Positions 9,545 to 47,673 of a stretch of DNA of 64,000 bases are shown here, one piece after another; position 1 is the stretch's first letter; the number at the start of each line of letters is the position of its first letter. Both the position numbers and the translations under genes were made by a program. Location of the stretch: assembly GCF_002574545.1 (NCBI RefSeq), contig NZ_NUGT01000080.1:49259-113258 (forward strand), written 5' to 3'. The notes under the pieces were generated by a model. The model made no database searches, had not been told where the DNA came from, and was given only the letters and a program-made list of their open reading frames with translations. This stretch comes from Bacillus sp. AFS055030 (GTDB lineage: Bacteria > Bacillota > Bacilli > Bacillales > Bacillaceae_G).

Positions 9545-9585
9545 AAGGCACCTCCCTATCTCTCGTAGGTCAAACAGCGTCGTTA

Positions 9586-9760
9586 GAATAGGCAGGTCTC
9601 CTGACTTAAGAATCTTTGTAAATAAAAGCCTTCCCTATATTAATAAGTGGCATCTTATTATTTACTCCTCTATTACAGTGGCGGGACCGTGTTGGAATTA
9701 AACCAAACTTCCCTTTTAAGTAAATGATTTTCAAACTTTGAAATTCATTTACACCTATTC
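9586..9760 (-). ncRNA. cobalamin riboswitch aptamer
   Basis: Read on the minus strand, the hallmark B12-box elements are present in order: GGGAAG, CACGGTCCCGCCACTGTAA (9674-9692) and AAGTCAGGAGACCTGCC (about 9592-9608). A closing stem GAATAGG (9754-9760) pairs with CCTATTC (9586-9592). It lies upstream of metE, as in many Firmicutes, and is followed by a terminator. Binding of adenosylcobalamin would be expected to turn metE off. Confidence 0.95.
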
Positions 9761-9780
9761 CCTACTATTTAGTTTTAATC

Positions 9781-25835: not shown

Positions 25836-26660
25836 TTATTTTTTACTATTTGAAAAATAAACATCATATCCTCTTCCAATATCCTTTACACTATGGGAAT
25901 CAGAACCATACATAAACTCTATATTTAATGAATTCGCAATTTCAACGACATGGACTGGTGGATATGATTCACCACAATACTCTTTAAATAATCCTGCAGT
26001 ATTATAATCTAACATATAATTTTTTTCTTTTACTAGCTTTAATAATTCAACTTGTTTATTTAGGATCGTTTGTGTATCATCACATTTCAAAAACTGTTTA
26101 AATTTATTGCATAAGGTCATATGTCCGATTCGTTTTGGTTTAAACGGACCTAAATCATCAATGATTGACTGTTTTACAAGATCATAATAAGCAAGTTGAA
26201 ACGCTTCTGCACTGCCATAGTAATTTACTAAACCAGATAGCGTATCTTCAGCTTTATAATCTAAACAATGCCAGCCATTTTTTCCTTCTAGATAGTGGAC
26301 TGACAAAAGTCCCGTGTCGCAATATTTGCCGTATTCTTTTAAAAAATCTTTAAACCAGACTGATTCACTCGGTAAATAATCGTATTCAAAACCAATTTTT
26401 ATTCGAATTCGATCCTTATACTGATCTCTTACTTTATACATTTCGTTAATATATTCGTCTACTTCTTTTTCAGACATTGCTAGAGAAGCTACTGCCTCAT
26501 CTGGCTTTAAGCTGTTTTGAAAAGATGATGGTACTGGTGAATGCTCGGTGATATGATATTCCTCAAACCCAAGTTCAATCGCTTTTTCGATCATTAATTG
26601 TACGTCATCACCACTTCCATGCGGACAATATTGTGTATGCGTGTGACCATCAATTTTCAA
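25836..26660 (-). CDS. hisJ: histidinol-phosphatase, PHP family
   Basis: 274 aa. The PHP-domain metal ligands are visible in [21 protein letters not shown] and FMYGSDSH near the C-terminus. It dephosphorylates histidinol phosphate to histidinol, the step before HisD. It is the last gene of the his operon and starts with a TTG overlapping the hisIE stop (TTGA). The PHP-type phosphatase is the usual one in bacilli. The HAD-type HisN is absent here. Confidence 0.9.
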
Positions 26661-27304
26661 GATTTTACTTTCTCCTTCCTATTAATTAAGCAATTGTTTA
26701 CCTCTTCAAGTTTTATTCCTTTTTCAACCATTAAAACCAAAGTGTGATAGACTAAATCACTAATTTCATAAATTAATTCTTCAGTTCCTTCATTTTTAGC
26801 ACCAATAATTACTTCACTTGTCTCTTCCCCTACTTTTTTCAAGATTTTATCAATACCTTGATTAAATAAATAGGTTGTATAAGACCCTTCAATTGGATTC
26901 TCTTTTCGATCTCGTATCGTTTCATAAAGATTTGGCAGATGACTTAATGATTTATTTTGAACAATATTTTTTTCTTGTTTTAAAGTCAATTTTTCTGAAA
27001 AACAACTATAGCTTCCTGTGTGGCAAGCTACACCGACTTGTTCAACCTGTAGTAAAATTGAATCTTGGTCACAATCATAGGAAATTGATTTAACATATTG
27101 CAGATTCCCCGACGTTTCCCCTTTTTTCCAAATTGACTTACGACTTCTACTAAAAAATGTTGCAAATCCAGTTTCGAGTGTGAGTTTAATGGACTCATTA
27201 TTCATATAGGCTAACATTAATACTTCTTTCGTATCAATATCTTGCACAATTGCTGGTACTAAACCTTGTTCATTAAAGCGAATTTTTTCGATATCAAAAA
27301 ACAT
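26657..27304 (-). CDS. hisI: bifunctional phosphoribosyl-AMP cyclohydrolase / phosphoribosyl-ATP pyrophosphatase
   Basis: 215 aa (HisIE). The N-terminal cyclohydrolase part has [14 protein letters not shown] and [25 protein letters not shown] with the zinc-binding cysteines. The C-terminal half (from about residue 110) is the HisE all-helical pyrophosphohydrolase: [21 protein letters not shown] and [15 protein letters not shown]. Together they do the second and third steps of histidine synthesis. It starts 11 nt after hisF and overlaps hisJ by 4 nt. Confidence 0.95.
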
Positions 27305-27315
27305 GTTTTCTCCTC

Positions 27316-28074
27316 CTATAGTCGAACTGGAATATTTTTTTCATTTAAATAGTCTTTTAATTCACTAATTTTGATCTCTCCAAAATGAAATACTGATGCA
27401 GCTAAAACGCCATCGACATTTGCATATTCAATCGCATCATAAAAGTGTTCTACTTTACCAGCGCCACCTGATGCGATAACGGGAACATTAACCGCATTAG
27501 TAATTTTTTGAAGCAATCTTATATCAAATCCTCTTTTCATCCCGTCTTCATCAATACTATTTAAAACAATTTCACCCGCTCCAAGTTCCACACCTTTTTT
27601 TGCCCAATCGACTGCGTCCCATTCAGTCTCTTTTCGGCCACCATTTATATACACTTTATAATTGCCATCTTTATTTAACTTTGCATCAATTGAAAGCACA
27701 ACACATTGTGATCCAAAACGATCAGATGCTTCCTTAATTAAAGTCGGATTTAAAATTGCAGCAGAATTGATTGAGACTTTATCGGCTCCATTTCTTAATA
27801 GTTTCGTAAAATCATCAATCGACCGTACCCCACCTCCAACACTGAAAGGAATACGCAATTGTTTCGCTACTTCTGAAACAAATTGCAATGATATATCTCT
27901 TTCTTCATTTGAGGCTGTAATATCATAAAAGACTAACTCGTCAGCACCATTATCACTATAATATTTTCCTAGTTTCGTAGGAGAGTCTACATCTTGAATA
28001 CTTGAAAACTGTTTTCCTTTCACAACTCGTCCATTACGAACGTCTAAGCACGGTATAATTCTTCTTGCAAGCAT
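27316..28074 (-). CDS. hisF: imidazole glycerol phosphate synthase, cyclase subunit
   Basis: 252 aa (beta/alpha)8 barrel. Catalytic Asp11 lies in [15 protein letters not shown] and the second catalytic Asp in VLSIDAKLN. Phosphate-binding loops are FSVGGGVRS and IASGGAGK. With HisH it converts PRFAR to imidazole-glycerol phosphate and AICAR. The 5' end overlaps the hisA 3' end by about 31 nt, which suggests coupled translation. Confidence 0.97.
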
Positions 28075-28775
28075 TTAAGTGCCTCCTCAACTGTAAATTT
28101 TCCTTCATATAAAGCTTTACCTGAAATCGCACCATAAATATTTAACTTGCAAAGGGACTTCAAATCATTGATTGAGCTCACTCCACCTGATGCGATAATA
28201 TTTAAATTTGTTTCTTCAGCTAATCTTTTATATGCTTCTAAATTAGGTCCACAAAGCATGCCGTCCTTTGATATATCAGTGTATACGACTGTTTTCACAC
28301 CAAGCAACTCTAGCAGTTTACAAAATTCAAAGCTATCTTGATTAGTCGACTCTTCCCAACCATTTATGGCTACAAAACTGTTTTTTGCATCTACTCCTAC
28401 AATGATTCGATCACCGTATTGTAAAACCGCTTGTTCTAAAAGTTGTCTATTATTAATAGCAGCTGTACCTAAAATTACTTTTTCAACACCTAATTCTAAC
28501 CAAAATGAAATCGAATCAAGTGATCTTATTCCTCCACCTAACTGAATGTTTAAATTCGTATTTTGAACGATTTCTTTTATAATTTGTGCATTTTTCCTTT
28601 CTCCTGTTCTAGCTCCATCTAAATCAACAATGTGTAATACTTTTGCACCTGCTTTTTCAAAATCTAACGCGACTTCAAGTGGTGAACTCTTATAAATTAC
28701 TTTCTTATTAAAGTCCCCTTGCTCAAGGCGAACGCAGTTACCGTCCTTTAAATCAATTGCTGGATATAGAATCAT
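28044..28775 (-). CDS. hisA: ProFAR isomerase (1-(5-phosphoribosyl)-5-[(5-phosphoribosylamino)methylideneamino]imidazole-4-carboxamide isomerase)
   Basis: 243 aa barrel, a sister of HisF. Catalytic Asp in [18 protein letters not shown] and the second in [11 protein letters not shown]; the phosphate loops are IQLGGGIRS and IASGGVSS. It catalyses the Amadori-type isomerisation of ProFAR to PRFAR. It overlaps hisH upstream by 23 nt and hisF downstream. Confidence 0.97.
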
Positions 28776-29376
28776 ATAAACACATCTCCTTAAATGCTTT
28801 TAATAAATTTAGACCAGTTTCTGCGCTTTTTTCAGGGTGAAATTGCATTCCGTAAATATTACCGGATTTAACAATCGCTGGAATCTTCACTCCATAGTCG
28901 GAATAAGCTAAAAGCTCTTCATTTGTTGAACTTATATAAAATGAATGTACAAAATAGACATACTCACCTTCATTTACATATTTTAAAAATGATTCTTGTT
29001 TAGTAAAATTTAGATTGTTCCAGCCCATATGTGGTACTTTTACGATGTCAGGTATACGTTTTACATAACCTTTAATTAAGCCTAGCCCACTTGCTCCGAA
29101 GTTTTCTTCACTAAATTCATATAATAATTGCATTCCTAGGCAAATTCCTAAAATCGGTGTACCGCTTTTTGCCTTTAACTTTATACAATCTACTAAACCA
29201 AGTCGATTTAATTCGTTCATCGCTGCTTCATATGCGCCAACACCTGGTAGAATAATAGATGATGCTTGCTTGATTACTTCAATTTCATTTGTAATAACCA
29301 CAGGAAAATCAATTTCCTCACATGCTCTTTTTAATGAATCTAAATTACCTACACCATAATCAATAATAATATTCAC
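28753..29376 (-). CDS. hisH: imidazole glycerol phosphate synthase, glutamine amidotransferase subunit
   Basis: 207 aa class-I glutamine amidotransferase. The catalytic cysteine is in LGICLGMQLL, the His-Glu pair in FHPEKSAETG, and the N-terminal IDYGVGNLDSLKRA is typical of HisH. It supplies ammonia to HisF. It starts immediately after the hisB stop. Confidence 0.97.
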   Translation of the reverse strand: MNIIIDYGVGNLDSLKRACEEIDFPVVITNEIEVIKQASSIILPGVGAYEAAMNELNRLGLVDCIKLKAKSGTPILGICLGMQLLYEFSEENFGASGLGLIKGYVKRIPDIVKVPHMGWNNLNFTKQESFLKYVNEGEYVYFVHSFYISSTNEELLAYSDYGVKIPAIVKSGNIYGMQFHPEKSAETGLNLLKAFKEMCLYDSISSN

Positions 29377-29955
29377 TTATAACATTCCTTTCGTTGAAGG
29401 TAATTTAGTCGAAGTTACTTCAACTGCTTGTTTAACCGCTCTACCAAATGCTTTAAATAAAGCTTCAATTTTGTGGTGATCATTTTCTCCATATAAAACT
29501 TCCATATGACAATTCATTTTAGCTTCGGAGCTTAATGCTTTAAAAAATTCTTTAAAATTCTGTGTATCAATCATTCCAATACGTTCTCTCACCGTTTTAT
29601 CATTATAAACAAGATACGGTCTGCCACTAAAATCGACGACTACTCTAGCTAATGTTTCATCCATCGGAATATAACATGAGCCGTAACGATTAATGCCAAA
29701 TTTTTCATCTAACGCAATTAATAAAGCTTTACCTAATGCGATCCCAACATCCTCTGTTGTGTGATGATCATCTACTTCAAGATCCCCCTCACAAAATACT
29801 TCTAAATTAATGCCACTATGGAATGAAAATAACGTTAACATATGGTCTAAAAAGCCAATACCAGTTTGAATCGTACTTTCTCCATCACCATCTAAATTTA
29901 GTTTCAATCGAATATTTGTTTCATTTGTTTGTCTTGTGATCGATGCAGTTCTCAC
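29377..29955 (-). CDS. hisB: imidazoleglycerol-phosphate dehydratase
   Basis: 192 aa monofunctional IGPD, as in other Gram-positive bacteria. The two manganese-binding motifs are DHHTTEDVGIALG and DHHKIEALFKAFGRAV; GIGFLDHML lies near the N-terminus. The GTG start overlaps the hisD stop as GTGA. Confidence 0.96.
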   Translation of the reverse strand: MRTASITRQTNETNIRLKLNLDGDGESTIQTGIGFLDHMLTLFSFHSGINLEVFCEGDLEVDDHHTTEDVGIALGKALLIALDEKFGINRYGSCYIPMDETLARVVVDFSGRPYLVYNDKTVRERIGMIDTQNFKEFFKALSSEAKMNCHMEVLYGENDHHKIEALFKAFGRAVKQAVEVTSTKLPSTKGML

Positions 29956-31241
29956 TTTGAATCCTCCTCAAATCGAATACTAATTGCTTTACCGTGACCA
30001 TATAGTCCTTCTTCCTCTGCGATCAATTCAATATGTTTTCTTGCTTCACTTAAGGCCGCCTTATTGTAGTAAACAACGGATGTTTTCTTCTGAAAATCAT
30101 TTACATTTAATGGCGAGGTGAATCTTGCAGTTCCGCTAGTCGGTAATGTATGATTCGTTCCCGCAAAGTAATCGCCAACAGGCTCTGGAGTATAATCTCC
30201 TAAAAATATAGCACCAGCATTTTTCACTTTATGAACGATCGACTCTGGCTTTTTTATCATTAGTTCAAGATGTTCAGGCGCTAGCTTATTAATAAGTTCA
30301 ATTCCTTCCTCGATTGTTTGAACGACGATAATGGCTCCATAATTTTCGAATGAGCTTTTAATAATTTCTTTTCTCGGCTGTTCGTCTAATAAGTTTGGTA
30401 TTTCTTGCTGTATTTTTTGGGCAAACTCTTCTGAATTCGTAATCACAATACTAGATGCCATTTCATCATGTTCTGCCTGTGCCATTAAGTCAGCTGCAAT
30501 AAATCTTGGATTGGCTGTTTCATCTGCTAAAATGACAACTTCAGTTGGGCCTGCAACCATATCAATTCCTACTATTCCCGAAACGCTTTTCTTAGCAAGC
30601 GCCACATAAATATTTCCTGGACCAACTATTTTGTCTACTTTTTCAATTGTTTCAGTTCCATACGCCAGTGCCCCGATTGCTTGCGCTCCACCAATTTTTA
30701 ATACTTTTGTAACACCAGCTAATTTTGCAGCAACTAGAATGGAAGGCTTAATTTTTCCTTCTTTATTTGGTGGCGTTATAATGACAATTTCATTCACTCC
30801 TGCTATTTTGGCAGGAATTACATTCATTAATACGGTTGATGGGTATGCCGCTTTTCCTCCTGGAATATACACACCAACTCTTTCAATCGGATTTATGATT
30901 TGTTGAACATATGAATTTTTTTCATTTATTTTATATCCATCTTGCAGTTGCTTTTCATGATAAGTCTCTATATTTTTCTTAGCTTCAATTAATGCATTGA
31001 TTAAGTTTTCATCGGTTTGTTTTAGGGCTTCATTAAACTCATCTTCACTTACTTCAAAACTTTTTAGTTTCACCTCATCATAAATTAAAGAATACTGACG
31101 TACCGCTTCATCACCATTTTCTTTCACATTTAATAAAATCTTTTCTACACTTTTTGTGATCTCAACAGTGGGCAAATTCGTTCGGTTTATAATACTTTCA
31201 AGTTTTTCGCTTTTTTGATTAATCGATAAAATTTCCAGCAT
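29952..31241 (-). CDS. hisD: histidinol dehydrogenase
   Basis: About 429 aa zinc enzyme that oxidises histidinol to histidine in two NAD-dependent steps. Family motifs include IPGGKAAYPSTVLMNVIPAK, the zinc region DLMAQAEHDEMASS, the general acid/base APEHLEL, and the C-terminal EGLYGHGKAISIR. The ATG at 31241 overlaps the end of hisG by 23 nt; an apparent N-terminal extension is hisG read in another frame. Confidence 0.96.
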   Translation of the reverse strand: MLEILSINQKSEKLESIINRTNLPTVEITKSVEKILLNVKENGDEAVRQYSLIYDEVKLKSFEVSEDEFNEALKQTDENLINALIEAKKNIETYHEKQLQDGYKINEKNSYVQQIINPIERVGVYIPGGKAAYPSTVLMNVIPAKIAGVNEIVIITPPNKEGKIKPSILVAAKLAGVTKVLKIGGAQAIGALAYGTETIEKVDKIVGPGNIYVALAKKSVSGIVGIDMVAGPTEVVILADETANPRFIAADLMAQAEHDEMASSIVITNSEEFAQKIQQEIPNLLDEQPRKEIIKSSFENYGAIIVVQTIEEGIELINKLAPEHLELMIKKPESIVHKVKNAGAIFLGDYTPEPVGDYFAGTNHTLPTSGTARFTSPLNVNDFQKKTSVVYYNKAALSEARKHIELIAEEEGLYGHGKAISIRFEEDSK

Positions 31242-31866
31242 ATATGTTCCTACCCTTCTTAATTTTTTCGATAAATTCAGTAATACGGAAATAGTTAAAT
31301 CGATAACTAACACGATTTGAAATCACTCTAGCACTGATTGGAATCATTTCTTCTAAAATAACTAATCCATTTGCTTTTAAAGTACTTCCTGTTTCGACTA
31401 AATCAACAATAATATCTGACATGCCTACAATTGGTGCTAATTCAACAGAACCGTTTAAATAAATCAGTTCAATATTTTGCCTAAACTGGAAATACTTCGA
31501 AGTAATATTTGGATATTTTGTCGCAACTCTTAACGTTTCATCACCTCGATCAATTAACGTTCCTGGAAAACCCGCTGCAGCAAAAATGCATTTTCCTAGT
31601 TCTAAATCCATCAACTCATAGACATCTTTCTCTTGTTCTAACAGAATGTCTTTTCCTACAAAGCCAAGATCGCAAACTCCTCGCTCAACATATGTAGCGA
31701 CATCCACTGGTTTTACTACTAAATATTTAATTTTTTGTAACTCATCTTCAAAAATTAGTTTTCTAGTTTTAGAATCAATTACTTTTTTGTAACCAGATTG
31801 ACTTAATATTTTAATGACTTCATCTTCAAGTCTTCCTTTTGCAACTGCAACTGTTAGCCAACTCAC
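31219..31866 (-). CDS. hisG: ATP phosphoribosyltransferase, short-form catalytic subunit
   Basis: About 215 aa. It lacks the regulatory C-terminal domain, as expected for the HisZ-dependent form. VAVAKGRLEDEVIKIL starts the fold, and IVDLVETGSTLKANGL is the PRPP-binding P-loop. It performs the first committed step of histidine synthesis. The GTG at 31866 overlaps the hisZ stop as GTGA with GAGGG upstream; the longer reading lies inside hisZ. Confidence 0.95.
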   Translation of the reverse strand: MSWLTVAVAKGRLEDEVIKILSQSGYKKVIDSKTRKLIFEDELQKIKYLVVKPVDVATYVERGVCDLGFVGKDILLEQEKDVYELMDLELGKCIFAAAGFPGTLIDRGDETLRVATKYPNITSKYFQFRQNIELIYLNGSVELAPIVGMSDIIVDLVETGSTLKANGLVILEEMIPISARVISNRVSYRFNYFRITEFIEKIKKGRNIYAGNFID

Positions 31867-32780
31867 TTTACATCCCTCATTTGACAAGTTATCCAAGCAT
31901 TTGTATCGATCGAAAATCCGATTGCATCAATGCTGTTTTCCGAATCTTCAGACACCAGAAGATAGCGTCCTCCACTTAAAACCTCTTTATTTAACTGATC
32001 ATAATACCCTTTAAAAACGATTCCGTCATAATAATCAAATTCATTTACAATTGATAAATCGAGAAGAATATTTGGACTAATTTCTTGAAATTTGATTACC
32101 TTTTCAACAGCATTTTCCATTTCATTATTTAATACTAAGCTTTTCAGTAATGAATGTAGCTTTTCTCCTTTACCTTGTAAACTAAATAACTGTTCAAAAA
32201 CATTCCTAGCTTGAAATGGTAAATTAATTGACTGAATAAATCGTTCTAATTCATCTATGTTTTTTAAATAAATTAGCTTTTTTAATTTATTTTTTTGCGA
32301 CTCAGTTAAATTACATTCTTTAAATAATCCGTCGATAAACCCTGTATGACCGATTTCTAAAATAAATGGAACATTACTTAATAAATCAATTGCCATAATA
32401 ACTACTTCTATTTCAGATTCTTCCGTAATTCGACCTAAATTTTCAATTCCAAATTGATTAATTTCTTCAAGTTCCACCCCATTATTCCGATAAATTGTTG
32501 ATTGATAAAATACTTTACATTTCTCTTCCTTCAGTGCGATTGGATAAATTTCTTTCATCAGTGCACTTGTTAAATCAGGTCTTAACAATAAAATTTGCTG
32601 TAACCGTGTTAAAACAACAACTAAATCTTCTCTAGCTAATCTTGGATTTCGACTTGAAAATGAATCATATTCTTCAAATAATTGAGGATGAAATGGGATA
32701 TATCCTCGTTCTAGTGCATAATCTTCCATTTTTCTTTTATATTGATAATTGACTAATGACTGCTTTAATTTCCCATCCAA
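31863..32780 (-). CDS. hisZ: ATP phosphoribosyltransferase regulatory subunit
   Basis: About 305 aa histidyl-tRNA-synthetase-like protein without tRNA charging ability. It complexes with short HisG and brings histidine feedback control. Class II synthetase-like parts include YERGYIPFHPQLFEEYDSF and EIGHTGFIDGLF, and the C-terminal YYDGIVFKGYYDQLNKEVLSGGRY. I chose a TTG at 32780 because GGGGG is 9 nt upstream. The longer reading to 32900 runs through the leader terminator and is artefactual. It is the first gene of the operon, shorter than typical 390-aa HisZ. Confidence 0.9.
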   Translation of the reverse strand: MDGKLKQSLVNYQYKRKMEDYALERGYIPFHPQLFEEYDSFSSRNPRLAREDLVVVLTRLQQILLLRPDLTSALMKEIYPIALKEEKCKVFYQSTIYRNNGVELEEINQFGIENLGRITEESEIEVVIMAIDLLSNVPFILEIGHTGFIDGLFKECNLTESQKNKLKKLIYLKNIDELERFIQSINLPFQARNVFEQLFSLQGKGEKLHSLLKSLVLNNEMENAVEKVIKFQEISPNILLDLSIVNEFDYYDGIVFKGYYDQLNKEVLSGGRYLLVSEDSENSIDAIGFSIDTNAWITCQMRDVK

Positions 32781-32799
32781 TTGAACATTCCCCCTTCTA

Positions 32800-32844
32800 G
32801 AAAAAACAAAAAGGCCATACAGGTTAAATGCCTGTATGGCCTTC
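32800..32844 (-). terminator. leader terminator (attenuator) of the his operon
   Basis: On the minus strand AAGGCCATACAGG pairs perfectly over 13 bp with CCTGTATGGCCTT (loop CATTTAA), followed by TTTTGTTTTTT. It lies about 20 nt upstream of hisZ and about 72 nt past the stop of the His-rich leader ORF. Confidence 0.93.
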
Positions 32845-32959
32845 TGGCACGACACAAGCACCTTTTTCGTAACACGAAGAGGGCTTGTATCTATGGTCAA
32901 TTTTTGTCCATAGATTCAAACCCTGGGTGGATGATGATGTTGTAGCCCATTATTCGTGC
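32845..32959 (-). promoter_or_regulatory. alternative helices of the his leader RNA
   Basis: Three pairings are visible. ATCTATGG/CCATAGAT (32889-32896 with 32908-32915) forms a hairpin just after the leader stop. GCACGAA...GGGCT in the leader ORF (32944-32959) is complementary to 32871-32885. ACAAGC...GCTTGT (32854-32888) forms a competing hairpin that uses the same 32871-32885 strand. The last two exclude one another, as expected of an attenuator. I did not find the exact helix that would open the terminator. Confidence 0.65.
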
Positions 32960-32972
32960 GTGCGAAAAACAT
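32916..32972 (-). CDS. his leader peptide with three consecutive His codons
   Basis: An 18-aa peptide, MFFARTNNGLQHHHPPRV. The codons CAT CAT CAT lie at 32931-32939. AAAGGAGA is 8 nt upstream of the ATG at 32972; another in-frame ATG at 32978 is too close to it. The ORF starts about 27 nt after the expected transcription start and precedes the terminator and hisZ. Such leaders control his operons of enterobacteria by ribosome stalling when charged tRNA-His is scarce; the arrangement here is analogous. Confidence 0.8.
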   Translation of the reverse strand: MFFARTNNGLQHHHPPRV

Positions 32973-33005
32973 GTTCATGTCTCCTTTTTCGTTTTATTTT
33001 TATTC

Positions 33006-33034
33006 ATCTTAATGAATTTGTTATAAATTGTCAA
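33006..33034 (-). promoter_or_regulatory. sigma-A promoter of the his operon
   Basis: TTGACA (complement of 33029-33034) and TAAGAT (complement of 33006-33011) are separated by exactly 17 nt. This is the best-matching vegetative promoter I noticed in the window, placing the start of transcription near 32999. Confidence 0.85.
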
Positions 33035-47598: not shown

Positions 47599-47627
47599 TT
47601 ATTCTTACGTTTAAAAAAATATATTTT

Positions 47628-47666
47628 ACGTGGTTCGAGAACCTCCCACGAAAAAAAACTAAGGAG
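47628..47666 (+). ncRNA. preQ1-I riboswitch
   Basis: The hairpin CGTGGTTCGAGAACCTCCCACG is interrupted by the conserved loop and is followed by AAAAAAAACTAAGGAG, the diagnostic tail of class I preQ1 aptamers. The tail contains the ribosome-binding site of queT, so ligand binding would block translation initiation. Confidence 0.92.
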
Positions 47667-47673
47667 AAACAAA

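Follow-up and report, generated by a model that had tools for sequence, protein, structure and literature searches.

The window, the 64-kb stretch of DNA analyzed here, comes from a genome of the genus Gottfriedia, a soil bacterium, and carries on its reverse strand an intact histidine operon with the gene order hisZ-G-D-B-H-A-F, followed by hisI(E) and a gene for a PHP-type phosphatase (Table 1). The TIGR00443 score of the first gene, hisZ, is below the curated cut-off because the protein is divergent. Its start codon lies 28 nt past the stem-loop of an intrinsic terminator, and upstream of this are a short ORF, its Shine-Dalgarno sequence and a promoter. Elsewhere in the window, we found a cobalamin riboswitch (9574-9773, minus strand; 108 bits) and a PreQ1 riboswitch (47624-47668, plus strand; 55 bits).

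Table 1. Features of the his leader and operon, in window coordinates
Feature	Position	Strand	Details
Sigma-A-type promoter, TTGACA-17-TAAGAT	33006-33034	-	TTGACA 33034-33029, TAAGAT 33011-33006
Shine-Dalgarno of leader ORF, AAAGGAGA	32980-32987	-	Sequence inspection
Segment A (leader start and coding region)	32945-32984	-	Pairs with the C-D linker and D in the ribosome-free MFE structure
Leader peptide ORF, MFFARTNNGLQHHHPPRV and stop	32916-32972	-	18 codons; ATG 32972, TGA 32918-32916
Sensor, tandem His codons CAT CAT CAT	32931-32939	-	HHH in 13/14 leaders, HDHH in 1/14
Hairpin B:C	32880-32924	-	B 32924-32908 (holds stop codon), C 32896-32880; state with ribosome on His codons
Hairpin C:D (anti-antiterminator)	32851-32891	-	9+3+5 bp; state with ribosome at stop codon, B covered
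Segment D	32851-32861	-
Hairpin D:E (antiterminator)	32827-32862	-	GUGCUUGUGU (32861-32852) pairs with AUACAGGCAU (32837-32828), plus GCC-AGAA-GGC
Intrinsic terminator E:F	32801-32845	-	Stem-loop 32845-32809, T-run to 32801
Shine-Dalgarno of hisZ, AGAAGGGGG	32790-32798	-	Sequence inspection
hisZ, first gene of operon	31863-32780	-	TTG start 32780; TIGR00443 E=3e-48
Rest of operon: hisG, hisD, hisB, hisH, hisA, hisF, hisI(E), phosphatase-like gene	25836-31896	-	Profiles/sequence
hisI(E)	26657-27304	-	From sequence only
PHP-type histidinol-phosphatase-like gene	25836-26660	-	From sequence only

The leader and its alternative hairpins

The promoter matches the consensus at 10 of 12 positions, with a spacer of 17 nt, and near-identical hexamers are seen in most members of the genus. 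The ATG at 32978 was ruled out as the leader start for lying too near the Shine-Dalgarno sequence. Within the window, the leader ORF is the sole ORF of 8-40 codons that combines a His-His-His run with a Shine-Dalgarno sequence, and the mean number of such ORFs in 20 Markov sequences was 0.0. The Gottfriedia leader has the layout of an attenuator: a short translatable ORF rich in codons for the end product, and an intrinsic terminator between the leader and the first gene.

The leader RNA folds nine SDs better than dinucleotide shuffles (z = -9.0) and contains four overlapping hairpins, B:C, C:D, D:E and E:F, where E and F are the 5' and 3' arms of the terminator. The energies of the isolated hairpins are -22.8, -18.7, -16.9 and -23.8 kcal/mol, respectively. 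An initial annotation, made by eye, had described the near-consensus promoter, the 18-codon ORF with its three CAT codons and a terminator just before the first his gene, and all of these were borne out. It had also placed a hairpin directly after the leader stop codon; the hairpin exists, but the stop codon lies inside it. Similarly, we found alternative folds matching its claim of mutually exclusive pairings that use the leader coding strand, but the main pairing partners of the leader-coding segment are the C-D linker and D rather than the first hairpin. The antiterminator helix, which the annotation could not settle, is resolved in the folding model as D:E; an earlier candidate, in which UCUAUGG downstream of the stop codon pairs with the arm of the terminator, was abandoned as folding prefers D:E. 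A match to RF04312 ("trpB") at 32803-32891 on the minus strand, covering C:D and the terminator, was rejected as sub-threshold (36.1 bits against a cut-off of 59) and is explained by the similar layout of hairpin and terminator.

Conservation among Gottfriedia genomes

A scan with a HisZ alignment gave matches only in Gottfriedia (G. acidiceleris, G. luciferensis, G. solisilvae and G. endophytica) and in Bacillus strains, with identities of 97-49% along almost the entire protein. The source genome (G000) shares its genus label with 12 others (G001-G012), and a His leader precedes hisZ in all 13, giving 14 leaders in total, with G009 having two hisZ loci (L006 and L015), each with its own leader. 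The second hisZ copy of G009 resembles that of G. endophytica and reflects either duplication or contamination, the latter being conceivable because the assembly consists of ~800 contigs.

The initial annotation had proposed looking for conservation of the His codons, the ORF and the helices in relatives, and the outcome agrees with its reading. The frame and stop position of the leader ORF are kept in 14/14 leaders, with no frame-breaking indel, as is the Shine-Dalgarno pattern GGAG/GGGG-ACAT. Even where the HisZ identity to the window falls to 49-51%, at L014 and L015, the ORF, the stop position and the His codons are still kept.

Covariation was assessed outside R-scape, on 11 distinct sequences. 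The fraction of paired cells was 98.3% for B:C, 96.2% for C:D and 100% for both D:E and E:F, compared with 20-61% in controls in which one side was slid by one to three columns. Compensatory changes are limited but correct, with one pair each in B:C, D:E and E:F and none in C:D, the covariation being thin because the element is very conserved. Most telling is alignment column 151 in E, which pairs with column 146 in D and with column 179 in F: all three positions have changed jointly in L014 and L015. The two sequences probably record a single evolutionary event, and the joint change supports the predicted alternation of helices without proving it.

Ribosome position and the choice of fold

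We modeled the switch by folding only the RNA not under the ribosome, assuming a leading edge of 12 nt. Measured from an A-site His codon, this edge leaves B free or nearly so; from the stop codon, it covers all of B. Shown for four leaders, a ribosome on the His codons gave B:C and D:E, and one at the stop codon gave C:D; L014 and L015 are exceptions to this pattern before F is made. We then computed partition functions for all 14 leaders on the RNA before transcription of F. With the ribosome at any of His1-His3, the probability of D:E was 0.98-1.00 in 14/14 leaders. With the ribosome at the stop codon, the probability of C:D was at least 0.95 in 12/14 leaders, and 1.00 for the window sequence, but only 0.56 for L015 and 0.02 for L014. 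At equilibrium, the stop-codon fold of L014 still favors D:E (probability 0.98) and that of L015 is mixed, and because of this, switching in these two would need co-transcriptional kinetics. In folding, the antiterminator is thus exclusive with the terminator and switched by the ribosome, with L014 and L015 weaker in the stop-codon state. Among 400 shuffles of the B-C-D region, eight equaled or exceeded the switch score of the window sequence. The ribosome-free state is ambiguous, with a D:E probability of 0.63 at equilibrium. In the four leaders checked, segment A occupies D in ribosome-free prefixes that stop short of the full E arm, and termination may therefore be likely in the absence of translation.

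From the parts of the leader, their conservation and the alternative folds, we infer ribosome stalling, terminator readthrough and a response to histidine. When His-tRNA is low, the ribosome would halt on the three His codons and leave B free, B:C would form and release D, and D:E would capture the 5' arm of the terminator, letting RNA polymerase continue into hisZ. When His-tRNA is ample, the ribosome would get to the stop codon and cover B, and C:D would then form, freeing E for the terminator. Without translation, segment A might take D first and tip the balance toward termination. The initial annotation had proposed a ribosome-mediated histidine attenuator, and the conserved His run and the two folds expected from ribosome position support this reading. 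Judged on its sequence and predicted folds, the leader is very probably a transcription attenuator that acts through the ribosome and matches expression of the hisZGDBHAF-IE operon to how much His-tRNA is available.

Other forms of control have to be weighed against this. The leader could be an attenuator that depends on translation but responds to a signal other than His-tRNA, such as Pro-Pro stalling or an antibiotic: Pro-Pro can slow ribosomes, and the window peptide contains HHHPP. However, the Pro-Pro is not conserved, the peptides reading HHHRKRD in L014 and HDHHPLRG in L015. The His run, by contrast, is HHH in 13/14 leaders and H-D-H-H in the other. The target is moreover the his operon itself, and related leaders with other peptides have mainly His codons in common and in several cases precede histidine-related genes, making this reading very improbable. 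Marginally less probable again is a terminator governed by a T-box or by some other element of riboswitch or tRNA-binding type, with an incidental short ORF. T-boxes are abundant in the source genome (27 above the cut-off) and control his operons in other Firmicutes (PMC9413887), and one of the 27 precedes the canonical hisS, but none is at the his operon. The RF00230 covariance model gave no match in the leader region at the gathering threshold or at E<=5, agreeing with the lack of a T-box motif noted by eye. An untranslated sensor, furthermore, would not need the His-run ORF that sits at a fixed position relative to B in 14/14 leaders. The initial annotation had expected a T-box or other control in such an operon, which was only partly right: most Bacillales his operons are under the repressor HisR, which 12 of the 13 Gottfriedia genomes lack.

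HisR itself offers the alternative that we consider least probable of all, namely that HisR/YerC acts at the promoter, as elsewhere in Bacillales, and that the leader is minor or decayed. Regulation by HisR is the norm in the order (PMC9413887), and in our genome survey PF01371 scored above the cut-off in 382/399 Bacillales genomes. The genomes without it are those of Gottfriedia except G. endophytica (G004), its sister genera, G074 and G391. G. endophytica still has a hisR gene as well as the leader, showing that the leader also occurs where HisR has been retained. In the other 12 of the 13 Gottfriedia genomes, however, no TrpR-family protein scores above the cut-off, and a scan for the HisR box CACTTTAnnnnnnTAAAGTG that defines the HisR regulon found none upstream of any Gottfriedia hisZ, although the same scan found a perfect box, CACTTTACCTTGTTAAAGTG, before hisZ of G051. 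The leader is also highly conserved, not decayed, and for the window genome HisR/YerC control is already largely refuted. Attenuation by the leader peptide thus remains our preferred explanation.

Two side observations concern hisZ in other genomes. The HisZ of G051 (L082 / L108), a genome from another family with the perfect HisR box upstream, is closest to the Gottfriedia type (E 4.5e-67), and transfer of its his operon is possible. In the HisR-less sister genus g2, the regions upstream of hisZ (L111-L114, in G018, G013, G016 and G017) showed neither a leader nor a HisR box; they have operator-like palindromes (CTTGTAAACAAACAACTTACAAG; CTTTCGTTTCGAAAG) after the promoter.

Related leaders and known attenuators

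We built a covariance model, R1, from the hisZ leaders and a second, R2, from the related leaders that R1 found. R1 matched related leaders in the sister genera (G013, G015 and G016) and in G219 of another family. In most genomes, R2 reciprocally recovered the Gottfriedia hisZ leaders at identical coordinates; it also added G014, G017, G054 and second sites in G013 and G016. Outside Gottfriedia, the related set comprises L039/L040, L041, L056, L149, L150, L152, L153, L154 and L155, from the sister genera and two other Bacillales families, and the leader peptides include MLRLLIVAQLHHHT, MINQLTFPQLHHT, MLFIQKSWVHHHRN and MTQQLNVCMTIKHHHL. Downstream lie a hisS paralogue (hisS2, by NF009085; L149 and L106, in G014 and G219), a hisD homologue (L150, in G054), a PF13726/PF03553 permease (L152 and L153), APC permeases (L104 and L154) and an unknown ORF (L103 and L105). 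We take the PF13726/PF03553 protein to be YuiF-like from its family; a search for a close homologue found none in Gottfriedia.

The divergent leaders of other genera keep the hairpin plan around a different sequence. By folding, L039-L041 have the plan of the hisZ leaders, D:E being weaker in L056, and in these leaders the stop-codon state is less decisive at equilibrium; segment D pairs in different registers between the two leader types. Matches of R1 in G126, G197, G208, G272 and G307 and of R2 in G092 were rejected as terminators without a convincing His leader, and antisense R1 matches as the reverse complement of the same hairpins. Plasmid records searched with the leaders and viral contigs searched with the C-segment pattern gave no match. 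We offer only tentatively, at slightly under even chances, the view that these leaders form one homologous family, spread over several targets in the HisR-poor family around Gottfriedia (the his operon, hisS2 and the YuiF-type and APC permeases) and reaching other Bacillales families (hisS2 in G219 and the hisD homologue in G054), an RNA regulon that replaced the HisR regulon, with G. endophytica as an intermediate.

His leader attenuation is already published for bacilli and for the B. cereus group, and the Gottfriedia switch is not new in kind. In bacilli, leader peptides with His codons ahead of hisZ and hisS* were reported in 2010 (Naville & Gautheret, PMC2965389). As described there, the bacilli leader shares with ours a short ORF that has a run of His codons and is followed, ahead of hisZ, by an intrinsic terminator, and its hisS* target has a parallel in the hisS-paralogue leaders of G014 and G219; the likeness is one of description, the account of that leader giving neither a resolved antiterminator nor a species. 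In 2022, his attenuators were predicted in six species of the B. cereus group and in some Peptostreptococcaceae and Erysipelotrichales (Ashniev et al., PMC9413887). Those of the B. cereus group likewise combine a His-rich leader peptide with a predicted terminator and antiterminator in HisR-less Bacillales, and the window leader also lies upstream of hisZ in a genome without HisR. Again the likeness is by description, and there the his operon is the sole listed target, whereas related leaders in the sister genera of Gottfriedia sit before hisS2, the YuiF-type permease and an APC permease, and HisR and the leader coexist in one Gottfriedia species.

The enterobacterial his leader (RF00514) has the same logic of alternating hairpins in which the antiterminator captures the 5' arm of the terminator. 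It differs in that the Gottfriedia leader has three His codons in a short peptide and in that its leader-coding segment has the C-D linker and D, instead of B, as pairing partners. The RF00514 covariance model gave no match to the window leader, and none in Firmicutes according to PMC9413887. The Leu-rich attenuator of S. aureus ilv-leu, which has mutational support (PMC5794164), is another case of amino-acid leader-peptide attenuation in Bacillales, with a different amino acid, genes and sequence. None of the papers searched combines Gottfriedia with histidine and attenuation, and the genus is absent from the main text of Ashniev et al. (PMC9413887). New here are the Gottfriedia case, the resolved switch and the related leaders on other genes (YuiF-type permease, APC permease and hisD homologue) in neighboring genera.

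With this predicted switch, complete and testable, Gottfriedia joins a short list of Gram-positive bacteria with His leader-peptide attenuators. The related leaders on permeases and on the second histidyl-tRNA synthetase suggest that the switch has moved between genes. With the old repressor gene and the attenuator together in one genome of the genus, Gottfriedia allows direct study of how an RNA switch takes the place of a DNA-binding repressor.
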